Assembly: GCA_020720045.1 (NCBI GenBank)
Contig: DYPH01000030.1
Coordinates: 1-49,839, forward strand
Length of the DNA: 49,839 nt
Direction: 5' to 3'
Source: Sorangium cellulosum
GTDB lineage: Bacteria; Myxococcota_A; Polyangia; Polyangiales; Polyangiaceae
Numbering within the stretch: position 1 is the first letter of the stretch; each line of letters starts with the position of its first letter. Shown here one piece after another: positions 4,051 through 13,237 of this stretch. A model generated the notes under the pieces. It had not been told where the DNA came from, did no database searches, and saw nothing but the letters and a program-made list of their open reading frames with translations. Both the position numbers and the translations under genes were made by a program.

Positions 4051-5367
4051 TCAATGAAGCATCTCTACAAGATCGTTTACAATTCGTTCAACGAGCGCTT
4101 CGGTGCCGTACGTCGATAGTCGTTGCCCGCTACGAACAGTCCAGCCGTCATTTGCATACGTAATTTCTTCGCCACCAGGGCCTTCCGAAGTATTTGCCCG
4201 ACGCCACTTCGGATACGACTCCGTAGCCACAGACCAGAACAGCGTCGGCCCACGCACCTCGCTTTTCCCCAGTCCCCACAACATCTCGTCGGACCGGAAA
4301 CCGATCCAAGCGAGGCGCTCTACGGGCGTGCACCCGGCGGCCTGGGCGACCAATAAGAATGCCCAGGCATCGGTGATTGCCTGTCCTTCACACAGTTGGA
4401 GGTACTCGTCGAGTTCAAGAGCGAGGTCGTAGGGGCGGACTTCGATCCGTACCCCTTGCGCGGCCATGCCCGTTGCCGCCGATGCGAGACTCGCAACCAG
4501 AAGTTCCGCGGCCTTGTTCCAGACGGCGAGCTTTCCAGCCTGCTTCTGACGCAGTGCAGCGACGGCCACGCTGTACCCCTCGGCCGCGACTGCCGTCCTC
4601 TCAAGATCACGAAGCGCATCAGCTCCGCGCGCCAAGATAAGCTCAAGAAAAGGGGCGAGATCGCCTTCGTCGGAAGCTGCTAGAGCCTCATAATAGCGGG
4701 CCCGATCTTTGCGACGAATGATGAGCGGTGGGTAACCGCCGCGGACAAATTCGAGCGTTGTAATCGCGCGCGCCGTTCGGCCATTTCCGTCGACAAACGG
4801 GTGAATGTGAGCGAGCCAGGCGTGCAGCACAGCGCCTCGGAGAAACGGGGGGAGATCGGCTCGCGCCAAGGACCAGCTTTCCCACGCTTCCATAGCATCC
4901 ATCACCGCTTTCCAATCGGGAGGTGGTCGATGCGTGGCACCTCTAATGATAACTTTTTGGGAGCGGAAGATCCCCGCACCGGGCCGTTCACCCAATATCA
5001 GGCCGTGTAGTGTCTGGACCTGCGTGATGTCCGTGGCGGCTCGATCTCGTGCAAGCTGAGCGAGCTTTTCGAACGCGGCGAACAGCGTCTGGGCGTCCTT
5101 CGCATAGGCCGGGTCGTGCCCAGTCAATGTCACGCGCTGAACCGCCAGCTCTGTCTCGCGAATCGTCAGCGGACTGCCCTCAATCGCATTTGACTGCGTC
5201 ACGTCTTCAAGGCGCGAATGTTGATAGTATTTCTCGATTGTTTCCTGCCGCAGGTTTCCCTTACTTCGAAGCAGGGCTACCCGGGTCTCGAGCTCTCCAA
5301 TTGCTGCCAACACGCGTTGCTCGACATCCGGCGATGCCAAGTAGGGGGTTCCGGAAAGCGCATCCAT
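4051..5367 (-). CDS. Fic family protein (AMP-transferase) with inhibitory helix
   Basis: The 438-residue protein contains the full Fic motif HPFVDGNGRTAR with catalytic His189. Fic enzymes usually transfer AMP from ATP to a hydroxyl side chain of a target protein. Residues 59-64 read SNAIEG, matching the (S/T)xxxE(G/N) inhibitory motif with Glu63, here in the N-terminal part (class II arrangement). The enzyme is therefore probably self-restrained. The C-terminal 150 residues have no recognised domain. I chose ATG 5367, which gives the usual start shortly before the Fic_N-like helices; the frame extends to 5523, but that extension is Arg/Cys/Pro rich and non-homologous in character. The Shine-Dalgarno is weak at either start. 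Confidence 0.85.
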   Translation of the reverse strand: MDALSGTPYLASPDVEQRVLAAIGELETRVALLRSKGNLRQETIEKYYQHSRLEDVTQSNAIEGSPLTIRETELAVQRVTLTGHDPAYAKDAQTLFAAFEKLAQLARDRAATDITQVQTLHGLILGERPGAGIFRSQKVIIRGATHRPPPDWKAVMDAMEAWESWSLARADLPPFLRGAVLHAWLAHIHPFVDGNGRTARAITTLEFVRGGYPPLIIRRKDRARYYEALAASDEGDLAPFLELILARGADALRDLERTAVAAEGYSVAVAALRQKQAGKLAVWNKAAELLVASLASAATGMAAQGVRIEVRPYDLALELDEYLQLCEGQAITDAWAFLLVAQAAGCTPVERLAWIGFRSDEMLWGLGKSEVRGPTLFWSVATESYPKWRRANTSEGPGGEEITYANDGWTVRSGQRLSTYGTEALVERIVNDLVEMLH

Positions 5368-5506
5368 TTGGCGTGAATAACGAAGGTCTCTGAGGAAGTC
5401 GACTAGAGCTGTTCGTTCCGACGATGGACAATCATGGCGCGGGCATCGCGCGTTCCCCGCCACGTCGTCGGAGGCTCGCCTCGGCGACCCCGACGAGCAC
5501 AAAAGC

Positions 5507-5540
5507 GAAGCCCGCGAATCCAACCGGACTCACGGGCTTC
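5507..5540 (-). terminator. Intrinsic terminator-like hairpin after the 270-residue unknown gene
   Basis: GAAGCCCG (5507-5514) pairs with CGGGCTTC (5533-5540). Read on the minus strand, the stem is followed by GCTTTTGTG, a short T tract. It lies 18 bases after the stop of the gene at 5559-6371, so it probably ends that transcript before the Fic gene. Confidence 0.55.
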
Positions 5541-6931: not shown

Positions 6932-7822
6932 ATGGACCCGATTGCACAGGCCTGGGTGGAGCTGAAGTTTGAGAATTTGTATCTGAAGGCGCGCGGAGAA
7001 AGCTTCCAGGAGCTCTTTTCGACGCTTCTCGAAAAGCGATACCCAGGGGACTTTGTTCGTGTTCGGCCTTGGGGGAACGTCGGCGACAAAAAGAACGATG
7101 GGCATCTCCCCTCTGCGCGCACGATTTTTCAGTGTTACGCGCCCAATGAATTGACCGCCGCAGACGCCATCAAGAAGATCAACGCCGACTTTATGGGGGC
7201 GCTCGCCCACTGGCCCGACGACTTTGATCGCTGGATATTTGTCCACAACAGCAAGGCTGGACTCGGGCCGGACGTCTTAAAGGCGCTCCTCGACCTTCAG
7301 ACGAATCACCCTGGAAAGCTGGTTCAATCTTGGGGCTACGAAGAGCTTCTGCGCGAGGTGCTTTTCCTCGAAGAAGGGCAGCTTACATCGTTCCTAGGGG
7401 CTGCCCCAACGCGCCAAGCAATCGTCGATCTTGGGATGGAAGATCTCGTTCCTGTGCTCGATCAGATCGCGCGGCACTCCGTCAAGCCGGAGATCGATGT
7501 ACGCCCCGTCCCGCCCGATAAGCTGACCCGCAACATGCTTTCGATGAGCGTCGAGACGCTGCTCCTCGCGGGAATGGTGCGGACGCCCCTCGTACGCCAG
7601 TATTTTTCTGCAAAGCCCGGCGATCGCGATCGACTGGCGGCCCGGTTTCAAGCGGAGTACGCCGCGCTACGGGTGGGGACGTCCTCGCCCGACGAGATCT
7701 TCCACGCGTTGCAGCGCTTGGCGACCGGGGACCGCATGGCGACGCCCGCCCACCAGGCGGCGTCGTTTGCCGTTCTCGCGTTTTTCTTTGAAGAGTGCGA
7801 CATTTTCGAGCGGCCCGAATGA
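6932..7822 (+). CDS. ABC-3C system first gene: REase-like N-terminal domain plus ABC-3C C-terminal domain
   Basis: The 296-residue protein starts at ATG 6932 behind the strong site GGAGGGGAG. Residues 23-95 resemble a restriction-endonuclease-like fold: helix-1 acid in SFQELF (Glu27), then GDKKNDG (51-57), then FQCYAP (66-71). The last motif has Gln-x-Tyr where classical enzymes have (D/E)-x-Lys, so nuclease activity is uncertain. The C-terminal half (about 170-296) should be the ABC-3C-specific domain that ties the effector to its partners. The stop overlaps the start of the next gene (ATGA). In ABC-3C systems the effector is thought to be held and released by the ATPase in response to invasion. 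Confidence 0.78.
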   Translation: MDPIAQAWVELKFENLYLKARGESFQELFSTLLEKRYPGDFVRVRPWGNVGDKKNDGHLPSARTIFQCYAPNELTAADAIKKINADFMGALAHWPDDFDRWIFVHNSKAGLGPDVLKALLDLQTNHPGKLVQSWGYEELLREVLFLEEGQLTSFLGAAPTRQAIVDLGMEDLVPVLDQIARHSVKPEIDVRPVPPDKLTRNMLSMSVETLLLAGMVRTPLVRQYFSAKPGDRDRLAARFQAEYAALRVGTSSPDEIFHALQRLATGDRMATPAHQAASFAVLAFFFEECDIFERPE

Positions 7823-8067
7823 TTCTTCCGACCAAAGGTATCGCCCCGTCGCAAGCGCTCCTCGCCCTCGGCGCGGATGTCCTTCGGCTGCTCACGGAGC
7901 AGATGACGGTCTCGCGCTTGTGGAACGACTTTCGCGCGGACGGCCGCCACGCCCACGTGTCCTTCGACCGCTTCGTGCTTACGCTCGACCTGCTCTTTTC
8001 GCTCGGTGTCCTTGAGCACCGCGGCGGGCGCCTTCGACGCATCGTTCTATCGGAGGAGGCGTCGTGA
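7819..8067 (+). CDS. ABC-3C system middle component 6 (MC6-like)
   Basis: This 82-residue protein starts MILPTKGIAPSQALLALGAD, the typical opening of the MC6-type middle component of ABC three-component systems. The rest (TVSRLWNDF, SFDRFVLTLDLLFSLGVLE) also fits the compact winged-helix-like family. ATG 7819 overlaps the stop of the effector gene, and its own stop overlaps the GTG of the ATPase gene, so the three genes are translationally coupled. The middle component probably bridges effector and ATPase. An in-frame upstream ATG at 7795 is rejected because family members start at the LPTK motif. Confidence 0.85.
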   Translation: MILPTKGIAPSQALLALGADVLRLLTEQMTVSRLWNDFRADGRHAHVSFDRFVLTLDLLFSLGVLEHRGGRLRRIVLSEEAS

Positions 8068-9797
8068 TCTATCGCATTTACTCCGACTTGCCGCACTTCA
8101 AGGCGATTGTCTTCAAACCGGGCTTCAATCTCCTTCTCGCAGACAAGAGTGCGAACGCCACCGACAAACAGACGCGCAATGGCTCCGGGAAGTCGAGTCT
8201 TCTTGAAGTGATCCATTTTCTGCTCGGGTCGAACTGCGACAAGGACTCCATCTTCCGAACTCCCGCGCTAAACGGCGCGATGTTTGGGATGGATTTTGAC
8301 GTTGGCGGGGGCAGCAGGACGAATGTGGAGAGGACCGGCTCTGGCCCGGCGAAGGTTATCGTTGCCGGGGATTTTTCGACCTGGCCTGCGGTGCCGACGA
8401 AGAAGAACCCGGCCACCCTCTCCAATGAGCAGTGGAAGACAGTTCTTGCGAAGTTGATGTTTGGTGTCGACCTCGTCGAGGTGGCGTGGAGCCCGAGTTT
8501 TCGGTCCCTGATTTCCTACTTTGTTCGGCGCGAGCGCAGCGGCGGCATGAAGGATCCGATGAGCCAGGCGGCTCAACAAGCCCTGGTCGACCAGCAGGTG
8601 CAGATCTCCTACCTGTTGGGCCTCGACTGGCACGTTGCTCATGCCTGGCAAGGCGTTCGCGACCGTGAGAAAGCGTTGAAAACGTTGCGTAACGGGCTGA
8701 GCGATGTGCTTGGGACCGCGGCGACGCTCCGCTCGCAGCGCTTCGTGGAAGAAGCGCGCGTTGAGCGCTTACGCGTAACCCTCGCCGAGTTTCGGGTCCT
8801 TGAGGAGTACGAATCGTTGGAGCGTGAGGCCTCTCAAATTACAAGGCGGCTCTCGCACTTGTCCGACGAGAATATTCTCGATCAGCGCTACTTGGATGAA
8901 TTGTCCGCTTCGATCGAAGCCGAGAAGCCGCCGGAGCCGGAAGCCCTCGAGGCGCTCTTCGCGGAAGTTGGGGTGACGCTGCCGGGCCTTGTCCGCGCGC
9001 GGTTCGAAGATGTGGCGGCGTTTCACGAATCGGTGCTTCGAAATCGTCAAGCGTACTTGCATGCCGAACGCACAGCGACCCGTGAGAGGATCGCGGCGCG
9101 AAACGCCGAAAAACTTCCGCTCGACGCGCGCCGCTCGGACCTCATGAAGGTGCTTCGGTCCTCGGGGGCGCTCGCGCACTTCACCCAGCTCCAATCCGAA
9201 CTCTCAAAGGCGGAGGCGCGTTTGGAGGCGCTCCGACAGAAAGAGCAAATGGCGGAGACCGCGGAGGCTGGGGAGCTTCGGCTGAAGGTTGAGCGCGCGC
9301 ATTTGGTGGAGCAATTGCGCCGCGAATATACGGAAGAAGAACTCCAGATTCGTCGCGCCGTCGTGCTCTTCCAAGAGATCTCAACCCGCCTCTACGAGGC
9401 CGAGCACACCGGCGTGCTCTCCATTGAGCCGACCGAAAATGGCCCCACCTTTCACACCCATATCCCGAGCGACAAGAGCAAGGGGGTCAACAACATGCGG
9501 ATCTTCTGCTTCGACATGATGCTGATGTTGTTGTCGATTGAGCGAGGTCGAAGCCCGCGCGTTCTCGTTCATGACAGCCATCTTTTTGACGGCGTCGACG
9601 AGCGTCAGACCGGCCGCGCGCTCGCTCTCGGGGCGAAACTCGCGCACGCGCACAACTTTCAATACATCGTCACGATGAACAGCGACGCGGTCCCGAAGAC
9701 GCTCCCGGACGGCTTCGACCTGGCTCCGCATACCCTCGACGTACGTCTGACCGACGCAACGGACGATGGCGGGCTTTTCGGTTTGCGCTTTGGGTGA
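8064..9797 (+). CDS. ABC-3C system ATPase, DUF2326 family
   Basis: The 577-residue protein starts at GTG 8064, preceded by GGAGGAGG and overlapping the MC6 stop. The N-terminus (IYRIYSDLPHFKAIVFKPGF, LLADKSANATDKQTRNGSGK) is diagnostic for DUF2326. Walker A NGSGKSS lies at residues 39-45. Residues 210-440 are mostly charged coiled coil, as in SMC/RecN-like proteins. Near the C-terminus, SPRVLVHDSHLFDGVDERQ is the Walker B and D-loop region, and MNSDAVPK follows. These ATPases are predicted to sense nucleic acid or nucleoprotein structures and to license the partner effector. A perfect 18-bp hairpin ends the operon 23 bases downstream. Confidence 0.9.
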   Translation: MIYRIYSDLPHFKAIVFKPGFNLLLADKSANATDKQTRNGSGKSSLLEVIHFLLGSNCDKDSIFRTPALNGAMFGMDFDVGGGSRTNVERTGSGPAKVIVAGDFSTWPAVPTKKNPATLSNEQWKTVLAKLMFGVDLVEVAWSPSFRSLISYFVRRERSGGMKDPMSQAAQQALVDQQVQISYLLGLDWHVAHAWQGVRDREKALKTLRNGLSDVLGTAATLRSQRFVEEARVERLRVTLAEFRVLEEYESLEREASQITRRLSHLSDENILDQRYLDELSASIEAEKPPEPEALEALFAEVGVTLPGLVRARFEDVAAFHESVLRNRQAYLHAERTATRERIAARNAEKLPLDARRSDLMKVLRSSGALAHFTQLQSELSKAEARLEALRQKEQMAETAEAGELRLKVERAHLVEQLRREYTEEELQIRRAVVLFQEISTRLYEAEHTGVLSIEPTENGPTFHTHIPSDKSKGVNNMRIFCFDMMLMLLSIERGRSPRVLVHDSHLFDGVDERQTGRALALGAKLAHAHNFQYIVTMNSDAVPKTLPDGFDLAPHTLDVRLTDATDDGGLFGLRFG

Positions 9798-9820: not shown

Positions 9821-9872
9821 CCCCAAAGAGAACCCCCGTGAGCTTCGCTGCTTGCGGGGGTTCTCTTTGGGG
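9821..9872 (+). terminator. Perfect 18-bp hairpin after the ABC-3C operon
   Basis: CCCCAAAGAGAACCCCCG (9821-9838) and CGGGGGTTCTCTTTGGGG (9855-9872) are exact inverted copies around a 16-base loop. The stem contains AAAGAGAA/TTCTCTTT, so it can serve as a terminator in both directions even without a downstream T run. It is longer than the other terminators of this window. Confidence 0.8.
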
Positions 9873-9993: not shown

Positions 9994-10806
9994 GTGAGCG
10001 AAAAGATGGCGAATGCGACCGTTTACTACGCGGTGGCGCAGGCGCGTTTCAACACCATCGCCAACATGGCCCACTACGTGGACGCCGTTCAAGACGCCTT
10101 TCGCCGTCGTGACTTCACGACCTTCGAGACCCATGAATCGACGGTCATCGACTTCGACGACTCCACGCAGACCGTGAATTCGTCGAAGTCCCCGGCGTGG
10201 TTTTTTGCACAGGCCGACCGCAAAGCGGGCTTCATGGTGAGCCAGACGTCGATCCTGTTCCATACGACCCACTACGAGACCAGCGCGGACTTTCTACCAA
10301 AGCTTCTCGAAGGTCTTAAAATTGTACACGAAATAGTCGGGCTCGCTCATGTCGCCCGAATCGGCCTTCGCTATCTCGACGCGGTGCTCCCACGCTCTGG
10401 CGAGTCCCCCTACGCGTACATCGTCCCGACGCTTCATGGAATCGACCTCCGCGGCGAGTCGGTCCTGTACCGCGTGCACGAAGCCGTTTTCCCGATCGAA
10501 GCAGCCCCTCCAGCGACGGACAGTCTGCTTGTCTCGCGGGTTCACTGGCGGAAGGGCGCCGTCGCATTCCCCCCAGACCTTATCGTGTACCCCCATACGC
10601 TTGCTGCAAAAGATTCCTTCATCGCCTGGGGAACCGGTGAGCACATCGTTATCGACACGGATCATTTCGTCAGTGGTCAGTTTCCTATCGATGACGCCGT
10701 CCTGAGCGCCGAGTTGCGTAGCCTTCACGGGAGGAGCAAAGACGTGTTCAACACCGTCATCACTCAACATGCACGTGACGCATGGCACGTTGAAGGTGCG
10801 CCATGA
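9994..10806 (+). CDS. TIGR04255 family protein
   Basis: The 270-residue protein matches the sporadically distributed TIGR04255 family in length and layout. It opens with an ARF-type segment (YYAVAQARFNTIANM), has a middle part FFAQADRKAGFMVSQTSILFHTT, then a central helix followed by RIGLRYLDAVLP and a late beta-rich half. The biochemical role of the family is unknown. GTG 9994 is supported by GAGAGGAGAG just upstream. Its TGA overlaps the ATG of the XRE-type gene (ATGA), so it is the first member of a tightly coupled three-gene unit. Family members are patchily distributed and often lie in accessory regions, which fits this context. Confidence 0.78.
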   Translation: MSEKMANATVYYAVAQARFNTIANMAHYVDAVQDAFRRRDFTTFETHESTVIDFDDSTQTVNSSKSPAWFFAQADRKAGFMVSQTSILFHTTHYETSADFLPKLLEGLKIVHEIVGLAHVARIGLRYLDAVLPRSGESPYAYIVPTLHGIDLRGESVLYRVHEAVFPIEAAPPATDSLLVSRVHWRKGAVAFPPDLIVYPHTLAAKDSFIAWGTGEHIVIDTDHFVSGQFPIDDAVLSAELRSLHGRSKDVFNTVITQHARDAWHVEGAP

Positions 10807-11381
10807 CCGCCAGCGCACCGCCGACCGCCCTTCGTGCACCGATGAGCAACGAAGGCTGGACCTACCATCGCGGCACGGGGGGCGGGCTTCCGCGCGCCCT
10901 CCTCCGGCCGGACACTCCGTGGCCTTCGCCGACCCGACGCGCCAAGGCGTCCGCAACGCGAACGCCTTCCGCGTGGGAATGCGTTCAGGCGATACGCACC
11001 ACGCTAGGGCTTTCGATGACCGAATTGGCCAAGGAGCTCGGCGTCAGTCGCCAAGCGATCTACAAGTGGGAGCAGGGCTCGAAGCCTGACATCGCCGTCG
11101 ATGGTGCTTTGAATCGTCTACACAAGGTGGCAACGGCGTTTTGTGACGCTGGTATTTCAGATGCGAAGCAGCTCGTCCGGCGTCCCCAGTTTGCCGGCGA
11201 ATCGCTCCTCGAACTCTGGCGAAAGCAGAAGGAAAACGGTACTTCCGTGCAAGCGCTCGTCAAAGAGGAGCGGCGCATGCAGAGCGAATATGAATCCTTC
11301 AAACGCGGATCGTCAAAGGCGGTGAACAAAGACGCGTGGCGTTCGTACCTATCGATTCCGAGCACGGACGAGGAGCGTTGA
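10803..11381 (+). CDS. XRE-family helix-turn-helix protein
   Basis: This is a 192-residue protein with a Cro/C1-type HTH at about residues 59-95 (LSMTELAKELGVSRQAIYKW). It has an unusual 55-residue polar N-terminal extension and a charged helical C-terminal half (SLLELWRKQKENG to the end). The ATG overlaps the stop of the TIGR04255 gene; a second in-frame ATG (residue 14) is possible. It probably binds DNA and may be the repressor of its own operon or the sensor of the module. The C-terminal part has no recognised domain. The next gene starts four bases after its stop. Confidence 0.75.
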   Translation: MTASAPPTALRAPMSNEGWTYHRGTGGGLPRALLRPDTPWPSPTRRAKASATRTPSAWECVQAIRTTLGLSMTELAKELGVSRQAIYKWEQGSKPDIAVDGALNRLHKVATAFCDAGISDAKQLVRRPQFAGESLLELWRKQKENGTSVQALVKEERRMQSEYESFKRGSSKAVNKDAWRSYLSIPSTDEER

Positions 11382-11384
11382 CCC

Positions 11385-12185
11385 GTGCCCCTCTTTGACC
11401 GTCAGACCGCTTGGCGTCAGGGGAGCTGGATCGCGCCTGCGTCGAACGCGGGTGTTTGTTCAGAGGCTGATGACGCGAGCATCCTCGTGGTCATTACCCA
11501 CGACTGCGATCTCGCCAACGATGCAGAACCCTTCGTTGAATTCGTGCGCGGAACGCAGGTTCCTAAGACCGACGGCAACTTCGAGCGCGCCGAGAACGCG
11601 CGCAAGCTACACGTGACGCTGGCGGCGGGCTTGTCGGTAGAACTCACATTTTCCGAGCGCTTCGCCAAAGCAAAAGCCGACCTGGAGCAGGCTCAGCCCA
11701 AGCTCGACGGGCACTGCGACGAGGCGGCGAAGGCGATCCTCAAACAGTGGCTTGCCGCGAGGTACGGGCGGCCGGCGTTTCCGAACGAGTTCGAGAAGCG
11801 AATCGACCAGGTTCGCAAAAAGCTCGACGGGATTGTGTCGCAGGCGCACCTTCCGAAGACCTTGGTTGGCGTCTTTGTCGCCCTCGAAGATGTGGGAGAG
11901 CTTGCTACTAACTATCCTTACGTCCTGAAGATGGTGCTCGTCTATGAGCACGACGGGGATTCGAACAAGGCGAAAGCTGCTTCTGATGCTGCAGACGCGA
12001 TCAGGACGCTCTTCGAAGAGGCCTATGGGGCCTCCGGCGCAGCAACGGCGATCGACTTGGAGAGCTGCGACGCGATTCACGTCACAAAAATGACGCTTGC
12101 CGACCTTCGGCAGTACGATCAGTGGCGACTTGAGCACGTGAGCTTCAAAGCGGGGGAACCGCCACTCGCCGTGGTTCGGTTCTAG
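11385..12185 (+). CDS. Unknown protein with THDCDLAN motif, third gene of the module
   Basis: This unrecognised 266-residue protein starts at GTG 11385, behind GAGGAGCG in the end of the previous gene. The strand ASILVVITHDCDLANDAEPF (residues 31-50) carries His39, Asp40, Cys41 and Asp42 at the end of a hydrophobic beta strand. That arrangement is typical of a catalytic or metal site, though I cannot name the chemistry. The middle (residues 90-150) is charged helix, and residues 155-185 form another hydrophobic strand region (KTLVGVFVALEDVG). There is no signal peptide or membrane segment. Its constant coupling to TIGR04255 and XRE genes should be tested. Confidence 0.6.
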   Translation: MPLFDRQTAWRQGSWIAPASNAGVCSEADDASILVVITHDCDLANDAEPFVEFVRGTQVPKTDGNFERAENARKLHVTLAAGLSVELTFSERFAKAKADLEQAQPKLDGHCDEAAKAILKQWLAARYGRPAFPNEFEKRIDQVRKKLDGIVSQAHLPKTLVGVFVALEDVGELATNYPYVLKMVLVYEHDGDSNKAKAASDAADAIRTLFEEAYGASGAATAIDLESCDAIHVTKMTLADLRQYDQWRLEHVSFKAGEPPLAVVRF

Positions 12186-12607: not shown

Positions 12608-13237
12608 ATGACTGCCGCACGCAAACTTCCCGAACCGGCGTCGCCAACCCTCGAAATGCCAGCGAAGCCGGCCACCTACGCCGATCTCCTGGCGCTTCCG
12701 GACCACGTGAATGGGGAGATCGTTGCTGGCGACCTCTATGCGAGTCCCCGACCTCGCTTTTCCCATGCGCGGGCGCGTTCCCGCCTCGGAAGGAAGCTTG
12801 GCCCCTTCGATGATGACGACGGGAGCGGGCTCGGTGGCTGGATCCTTCTGTTCGAGCCGGAGCTGCACCTCGGCGGCGACGTCCTGATTCCCGACCTCGC
12901 CGGGTGGCGGCGCTCGACGATGCCCGAACTCCCCGAGGTCGCCTTCACCGACGTCGCCCCGGACTGGGTTTGTGAGGTCCTATCGCCTTCGACGGCGCGC
13001 CTCGACCGCGGAAAAAAGCTGGCCGCCTACGCCCGCGAGGGCGTCTCCCACGCATGGCTCATCGATCCGGATGCAAAGACCCTTGAGATCTTTGAGCGTG
13101 TGACGAGCGCCGACCACGGGCCCACATGGACAGGGGCGCGGTACGTCCTTGCCGCGGTCCACGGGGACGACGACGTCGTGAACGCGGCTCCGTTTGCGGC
13201 GTTGCCCCTCGAACTCGCCGCGTTGTGGGCCCGCTAG
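12608..13237 (+). CDS. Uma2 family (DUF820) predicted endonuclease
   Basis: The 209-residue protein has the layout of the Uma2 / DUF820 family, a PD-(D/E)xK-fold group. It opens with TYADLLALPDHVNGEIVAGD, then the strand with IPDLAGWR (acidic Asp), then WVCEVLSPSTARLDRGKKL (Glu and Lys), and AHAWLIDPD-like strands near residues 145-155. These proteins are numerous in cyanobacteria and myxobacteria; most have no tested role. It is monocistronic, with no clear Shine-Dalgarno before ATG 12608. It is the last intact gene before the right-hand repeat of the accessory block. Confidence 0.85.
   Translation: MTAARKLPEPASPTLEMPAKPATYADLLALPDHVNGEIVAGDLYASPRPRFSHARARSRLGRKLGPFDDDDGSGLGGWILLFEPELHLGGDVLIPDLAGWRRSTMPELPEVAFTDVAPDWVCEVLSPSTARLDRGKKLAAYAREGVSHAWLIDPDAKTLEIFERVTSADHGPTWTGARYVLAAVHGDDDVVNAAPFAALPLELAALWAR

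Follow-up and report, generated by a model that had tools for sequence, protein, structure and literature searches.

Three-gene operons that combine a toxin-like and an antitoxin-like protein are known from anti-phage defense in Escherichia coli, where PD-T4-9/CmdTAC and PD-lambda-2 are built in this way and PD-lambda-2 contains an Xre-type helix-turn-helix (HTH). In the portion of that work covered here (Vassallo et al. 2022, PMC9519451), 12 of 21 systems are located in intact prophages and four at the P2 replication-portal locus. This gpA-gpQ locus is a published hotspot for anti-phage systems (Rousset et al. 2022, PMC9122126; Vassallo et al. 2022, PMC9519451), for which the covered sections of Rousset et al. 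mention old/tin, DUF4238, DprA-PRTase and a three-gene system. The protein family TIGR04255 is a named NCBIfam entry to which no function is given. In this study, we describe a cassette of three genes, named A, B and C, at positions 9994-12185 of a 49,839-nucleotide stretch of Sorangium cellulosum DNA (contig DYPH01000030.1, hereafter the window), encoding a TIGR04255 protein, an HTH protein and a protein with a predicted toxin fold.

The cassette resembles the MazF/PemK/Kid and CcdB toxin-antitoxin systems in being tightly packed, in having the gene of an HTH protein upstream of C, and in the predicted fold of C residues 1-131, to which nearly the whole toxin chain can be aligned. Unlike these toxins, C has no detected sequence or profile similarity to them, carries an additional half of 135 residues and shows its own [TS][HQ]xCD motif, and the cassette has a third gene, encoding the TIGR04255 protein, which is first in all complete copies. 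It shares with CmdTAC and PD-lambda-2 the three-gene operon with a toxin-like protein, and with PD-lambda-2 also an HTH protein, whereas the predicted fold of C differs from the toxins described in the covered portion of that work. A is a full-length TIGR04255 member, but for most other members that we fetched, the operon differs from the cassette in its second and third genes. The fixed gene order, the frequent location at the P2 hotspot and the toxin-like fold predicted for C make it probable that the cassette serves bacteria as an immune or addiction system that has not been described. We give roughly an even chance to a more specific reading, in which the three components make up a mobile and self-contained conflict module that descends from a toxin-antitoxin system or is built alike, most likely acting in anti-phage defense by abortive infection.

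A conserved and mobile cassette

The three genes are real open reading frames (ORFs) on the + strand. Gene A (9994-10806, GTG start) encodes 270 amino acids, gene B (10803-11381, ATG start) encodes 192 amino acids comprising an N-terminal region and an HTH_3 domain, and gene C (11385-12185, GTG start) encodes 266 amino acids. A and B are coupled by a 4-nt ATGA overlap, as described in the initial annotation, while the gap of 4 bases given there for B and C measures 3 nt (11382-11384). A tightly packed operon, with an overlap and a short gap, and a DNA-binding HTH partner encoded by B is a trait of type II toxin-antitoxin systems. Of 48 non-redundant cassettes, 44 have at most 30 nt between B and C.

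The conserved neighborhood on which the proposal of a module depended was found. The order A-B-C was present in all 91 loci (48 non-redundant, after removal of similar C proteins) with strong hits to the three genes on one strand, more than chance would give. This set is defined by E < 1e-10 for each profile, so that loci lacking any of the three genes are excluded by construction, and repeats of one place were counted in it before the reduction. Loci with a C hit outside this set start at a contig start (L007, L067; loci are designated by L numbers), are cut (L058), have a weak C hit (L032), or are divergent with weak hits and the same gene order (L150, L169, L170, L172). Those with A and B hits and no C hit are mostly short A-centered loci ending before C; the others lie at a contig end (L056, L100), are divergent (L171, L173) or are decayed with stops in A and C (L054, L207). 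We kept in the set L077, whose C is cut by the contig end, as well as L012 and L015, whose C is interrupted by stops. Seeding the search with C gave all three genes on one strand in the order A-B-C in 27 of 28 loci, the remaining one being L007, cut at the contig start; L012 and L015, with C in two pieces, were already among these first 28. Starting from an E. coli A protein, we found B and C behind A in all 21 viral loci; in one of them the contig ends within C. The evolutionary distances of the three proteins were strongly correlated in a mirror-tree comparison (0.944 for A/B, 0.947 for A/C and 0.925 for B/C), with permutation maxima of 0.255-0.317.

Relatives of C were found at 15 loci in a scan of one genome per species, in 9 of 72,556 plasmid records, in 2 phage records and in 10 plus 3 IMG/VR contigs. 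Among 274 sampled gammaproteobacterial genomes, 10 have C and 28 have TIGR04255, the former nested within the latter (P 2.4e-11); without the genome chosen as the center of the sample, the counts were 9 and 27 of 273 (P 2.3e-10). The same nesting was seen in the phylum of the window, where C occurred in 4 and TIGR04255 in 39 of 282 genomes including its own (P 0.002 without its own genome). Named hosts of the cassette include Burkholderiaceae, Komagataeibacter, Enterobacterales, Pseudomonas, Acinetobacter and Vibrio, together with Acidothermus, a verrucomicrobium, Meiothermus and Gloeocapsa. The C protein of an Acidothermus contig from a metagenome-assembled genome (L005) is about 73% identical to that of the viral contig L037 and about 60% identical to one from Burkholderiaceae, which argues for horizontal transfer unless the contig was mis-binned. 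A C fragment with a SHDCD motif in a viral contig (L042:4698-5207), with no A or B hits in its 11 kb, is probably a remnant. For three distant A proteins, no relatives were found in viral contigs, and the cassette of a Klebsiella plasmid gave no blastn match in E. coli. The A-B-C set is a conserved, horizontally mobile module.

Insertion sites and comparison with described systems

In E. coli, a blastn match to the cassette was found in 19 of 5,426 complete genomes, always on the chromosome, a search that more divergent copies could escape. In all six records that we opened, the cassette was located in a P2-like prophage, between a replication endonuclease or DinI-like gene and the portal gene. 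A P2 portal homolog also adjoins the cassette in 16 of 21 viral contigs, a biased sample as the query was the P2-borne E. coli A protein. The copy in the window lies outside any P2 prophage. Elsewhere, phage integrases adjoin the cassette in L034, L035 and L040, type I restriction-modification genes in L012, L023 and L037, a set of methyltransferase, DUF262 and specificity-subunit genes in L024, and a gene matching PD-Lambda-1 in L086. The P2 hotspot, the plasmid and integrase-side sites and some defense neighbors support a conflict setting, and in this respect the suggestion of a conflict module made in the initial annotation is supported.

In L040, the cassette is placed between the integrase and a gene encoding a CI-like repressor. 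This position and the HTH of B would also suit accessory regulators of the prophage or plasmid lifestyle, controlling lysogeny or copy number with no conflict function. We regard this explanation as very unlikely, because the three genes also occur, with differing neighbors, on plasmids or contigs that are attributed to Actinobacteria, Verrucomicrobia, Cyanobacteria and Deinococcota, and because a toxin fold is predicted for C.

Relatives of the cassette share their insertion point with the described gpA-gpQ systems, but A and C, taken from the window and from two E. coli lineages, match no model of PADLOC-DB 2.0.0, and the matches of B are limited to the HTH parts of the RmrA, mad1, capH and HTH_VI models. 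PD-Lambda-1 was the only system of Vassallo et al. named in the PADLOC output. The word TIGR04255 was not found in a full-text search of a collection of papers, which would miss descriptions under other names or only in supplements, and none of six protein accessions of the E. coli copies was found there. Further literature searches, with the same limit as to other names, turned up no description of the cassette. The covered portion of the DefensePredictor paper (PMC13092281) gave no sign of the cassette.

One candidate for a known counterpart is Rst_3HP, the validated three-gene system of P2-like phages. It occupies the same hotspot, is described in the covered sections of Rousset et al. (PMC9122126) as lacking a clear predicted domain, and is listed in the covered part of another source (PMC9090908) as mostly prophage-borne; the HTH of the E. 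coli B protein is barely above the Pfam cut-off (23.6 vs 23). PADLOC 2.0.0, however, holds a model Hp2 (PDLC03005, 359 positions), the one Hp model looked up by accession, which we assigned to Rst_3HP by its name and because its accession is listed close to that of a model called Hydrolase. Together with PD-Lambda-1, this model shows that systems of the hotspot era are represented in PADLOC. The three proteins of the window and six E. coli proteins match no Hp model at E <= 1, and Hp2 is longer than every protein of the cassette. Since Hp2 is present in PADLOC and remains unmatched, Rst_3HP is most likely a different system, and identity of the two is hardly credible.

Three gene products and their possible roles

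A structure prediction of the 266-residue C protein had been proposed in the initial annotation. In the model (mean pLDDT, the predicted local distance difference test, 86.6; predicted template modeling score, pTM, 0.68), residues 1-131 (11385-11777, + strand) are predicted to adopt the MazF/CcdB/Kid toxin fold by Foldseek and by a second structure search (VIA). Ranks 1-18 of the Foldseek matches in the PDB are MazF or mRNA interferase structures (E 8.3e-4 to 1.6e-2, TMt 0.56-0.67). In VIA, the 50 listed rows are all MazF/Kid/CcdB toxins (Z 8.2-10.2, root-mean-square deviation 2.8-4.5 over 95-117 residues), including rows titled merely toxin, endoribonuclease or YdcE, which we take to belong to this group, and the best match aligns 104 of 110 residues at 3.4 Å. 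The SH3-like barrel of the PemK/MazF/CcdB toxins is present in C as far as the predicted model goes. Residues 132-266 (11778-12182, + strand) form an alpha/beta half to which no fold is assigned and in which residues 252-256 and 258-266 have a pLDDT below 50. C matches phrog_34320, a family annotated as of unknown function; it has no NCBIfam match, its one Pfam match is below threshold and has no bearing (16.6 bits vs 26.5), and no sequence relatives of weight were found in the PDB.

The motif T38-H39-D40-C41-D42 of C (11496-11510, + strand; THDCDL, residues 38-43, at 11496-11513) follows a predicted strand at residues 32-36. C41 and D42 do not vary in either of two alignments, one with 24 and one with 29 sequences, and the pattern [TS][HQG][DTS]CD is found in 46 of 48 non-redundant C proteins, with SHDCD, SQDCD and SQSCD among the variants; the two exceptions are the stop-interrupted genes of L012 and L015. 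In the initial annotation, this motif was said to look like an active or metal site. A metal site was rejected, as no conserved set of Cys and His residues is seen beyond the motif. The dN/dS of C was 0.033, 0.051, 0.101, 0.103 and 0.118 in five pairs and 0.588 in a sixth pair of low divergence (six of eight pairs were computable). Together, the predicted toxin fold and the invariant C41-D42 make C the best candidate for the effector of the cassette. In two cases (L012:4286-5139 and L015:6971-7815), stops break C and leave A and B intact, as if C were the costly component, an assembly error being another possibility.

The second gene had been proposed to encode a DNA-binding protein, and B indeed contains an HTH_3 domain at residues 62-97 (10986-11093, + strand; Pfam 38.9 bits, cut-off 23). 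A Gly-Thr-Gly (G-T-G) motif at residues 24-26 (10872-10880, + strand) is encoded 5' of the HTH. Of 52 non-redundant HTH-type B proteins, 31 have such a motif ahead of the HTH, compared with 2.3 expected by shuffling; none of 34 second genes of other TIGR04255 operons has it. A hydrophobic stretch (Kyte-Doolittle value >= 1.6 over 15 residues) was detected in 30 of the 52 HTH-type B proteins vs 22 of 102 neighbor proteins, and in 5 of the 34 second genes of other TIGR04255 operons; among relatives of B, the G-T-G motif often comes after this stretch, and B of the window has the motif without the stretch. Membrane anchoring as a general property of B was rejected on these counts and on the lack of a stretch in the window's B, and only the G-T-G motif was retained.

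The A protein is a full-length member of TIGR04255 (120.8 bits, cut-off 30, model positions 1-252 of 252 in NCBIfam), modeled as a saddle-like alpha+beta protein (pLDDT 91.1). Residues Y94, R122, R126, Y127, D221, D223 and F252 reach a conservation of at least 96% among 48 A proteins of the cassette and of 73-98% among 48 TIGR04255 proteins from elsewhere, while R37, G124 and E163 are invariant within the cassette and not kept in TIGR04255 proteins elsewhere. As R122/R126 and D221/D223 are spaced like one face of a strand, the conserved Arg and Asp positions likely form a shared ligand-binding or catalytic surface. The best fold matches of A, arginine kinases (up to Z 9.0) and then TATA-binding proteins, are all at Z 7-9 and do not decide its function. 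Arginine-kinase activity was rejected because this score is near the stated noise level of the tool (7-8) and because no pattern matching the nucleotide-binding arginines of these kinases was seen in A; the likeness to TATA-binding proteins is equally weak. A SecB-like chaperone was not among the listed fold matches, which were weak and mixed. No sequence relatives of A were found in the PDB, and a library of viral structures gave one unnamed protein of 202 residues (E 7.6e-5) and otherwise weak matches.

These features could be combined in the following way. B would bind DNA through its HTH and keep the operon repressed, and B together with A, a predicted saddle-fold protein with a conserved Arg/Asp surface common to other TIGR04255 operons, would hold C inactive. 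A signal from an infection or a mobile element, probably read by A or through loss of the N-terminal segment of B, would then free or activate C, whose MazF/CcdB-fold domain, with an active or binding site remodeled around T38-x-x-C41-D42, would halt growth through an effect on RNA, on gyrase or on some other core target. Gene structure, joint inheritance, mobility, the hotspot sites of relatives, the fold predicted for C and the conserved motif are results of the analysis, from which the roles of the single proteins, the toxicity of C, the trigger, the target and phage protection are inferred. The set had been described initially as regulator, sensor and effector; the DNA-binding domain of B and the candidacy of C as effector agree with this description, while A and B could each be the sensor or the neutralizer.

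A toxin-fold protein in plasmid and prophage copies, with integrases adjoining some of them (L034, L035, L040), could also be explained by an addiction or maintenance module that stabilizes plasmids and prophages by post-segregational killing and has no anti-phage role. We consider this unlikely, since the P2 gpA-gpQ site and the restriction-modification and PD-Lambda-1 neighbors favor defense over maintenance and since chromosomal copies were seen, by eye, with no obvious mobile element. The same location evidence would also serve for a direct, non-suicidal anti-phage system in which C or A attacks the nucleic acid or protein of the phage, with B as no more than a transcriptional regulator, and the conserved Arg and Asp residues of A suggest a ligand-binding or catalytic site that such a system could use. 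However, the predicted fold of C is that of toxins acting on the host, and Pfam, NCBIfam, PADLOC and PHROG profile searches with A and C gave no nuclease or modification domain, which makes this explanation quite unlikely.

Several observations weigh against an abortive-infection module with a toxin as effector. The models of A and C were built from just 27 and 29 sequences, respectively, and the fold matches of A are ambiguous. In Foldseek, C had a single match below E 0.001. It has no match to the Pfam family PF02452 (PemK/MazF) at E <= 1, and hhalign comparisons with 3 and then 16 PemK-like sequences, a small yardstick set, gave probabilities of 0.3-6.7. The MazF catalytic residues, which we take to be an Arg starting the second strand and a Thr after the third strand, look unconserved when the alignment of C proteins is judged by eye. 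Regarding the genomic setting, seven of ten neighbor proteins matched PADLOC models, one of them just a general UvrD-like helicase, and three had no match; these ten were chosen by hand and illustrate the neighborhoods rather than giving an enrichment figure. Some chromosomal copies lie, by eye, among ordinary genes (e.g., L201, L205); such copies fit a mobile cassette and not a strict defense island.

The surrounding window and other TIGR04255 operons

An ABC-3C system (CTD10/MC6/DUF2326; PADLOC PDC-M68) is encoded at 6932-9797, upstream of A on the same strand, as the initial annotation had noted. The shared strand and the distance of 196 bp could indicate that the cassette genes are accessory parts of this system. 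The intervening stretch, however, holds a very strong hairpin (folding z -9.61 for the 196 bp), and no ABC-3C genes are annotated beside the cassette in nine plasmid, one phage and six E. coli loci, a comparison made on annotation only, in which such genes are often left hypothetical. A functional link to the ABC-3C system is extremely unlikely in view of this. The hairpin, which is outside the module, is a terminator-like inverted repeat at 9821-9872 (arms 9821-9843 and 9850-9872, 23 nt each, 91% complementary). At a glance, there is no sign of a clear T run 3' of the repeat; it may be a bidirectional terminator. A Fic protein gene (4051-5523, - strand; best PADLOC match SoFic, 7.9e-29) and a Uma2 protein gene (12608-13237, + strand; PADLOC match PDC-S03) flank the ABC-3C and cassette genes, so that this part of the window resembles a small defense island.

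TIGR04255 is more common than C. Of 50 TIGR04255 loci outside the strong set, among them six divergent ones with weak B or C hits and a decayed one, 38 have the next ORF on the same strand and within 30 nt or overlapping (by exactly 4 nt in 14), 42 have the second downstream ORF on the same strand, and 10 have an upstream ORF at such a short distance. ORFs were called mechanically and these tallies are approximate. A search for a strict form of the C motif, covering three genes to each side of A at 58 genome loci, found it in 13, always in the second gene downstream. It catches shorter proteins that the C profile misses (L157, L158, L182, L192) and fails in four loci where the C profile gives a hit (L172, L200, L203, L204).

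The remaining types of third gene fall into clusters. Some are HNH-like (L178:5740-6381, L183:3561-4151, L168:1610-2104), and the one member tested, that of L178, had a Pfam HNH score of 20.8 bits, below the cut-off of 21.4. Another set has a conserved Thr-Cys-(Ala/Ser)-(Ser/Thr)-Phe stretch (L149:5912-6583, L151:3297-3947, L175:5889-6689, L189:1482-2138) and, judged by eye, is possibly cysteine-peptidase-like; L149 and L189, the two members tested, gave no Pfam family. For L164, the third gene had been assigned to HEPN by eye only, and this was dropped as it has no Pfam match. The HTH protein is also replaced by an alternative second-gene family in many TIGR04255 operons (L153, L155, L161, L165, L166, L194-L197), with an N-W-D-x-Y-G-A-like stretch in several members. 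The genome of the window itself carries four TIGR04255 operons, all with a 4-nt overlap and with differing partners; the three besides the cassette, on contigs C126, C148 and C336 (L189, L190 and L191), each have a different third gene. In the same genome, a DarG-like fragment with an internal stop was seen at G000:C8:1980-2438 (E 3.4e-64).

The variation of the third gene behind TIGR04255 suggests operons with a constant core, the first gene, and exchangeable effectors. We tentatively extend this, at somewhat less than an even chance, to a large and so far undescribed superfamily of immune operons, modular and made of three genes, of which one genome may carry several. A would be the sensor or guard that all of them share, the second gene would encode a variable adaptor, and the third an effector that can be swapped, such as the MazF/CcdB-fold protein with its [TS]xxCD motif, an HNH-like nuclease, a possible cysteine-peptidase-like protein and others. 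The cassette would add to the toxins thought to be active in phage defense a MazF/CcdB-fold effector with a different conserved site. The link of TIGR04255, a named family without a function, with the P2 defense hotspot and with an effector of predicted toxin fold gives it a testable role, with E. coli as the test bed. If the third gene is an exchangeable effector, TIGR04255 would give access to new effector types, found through their position and not through similarity.

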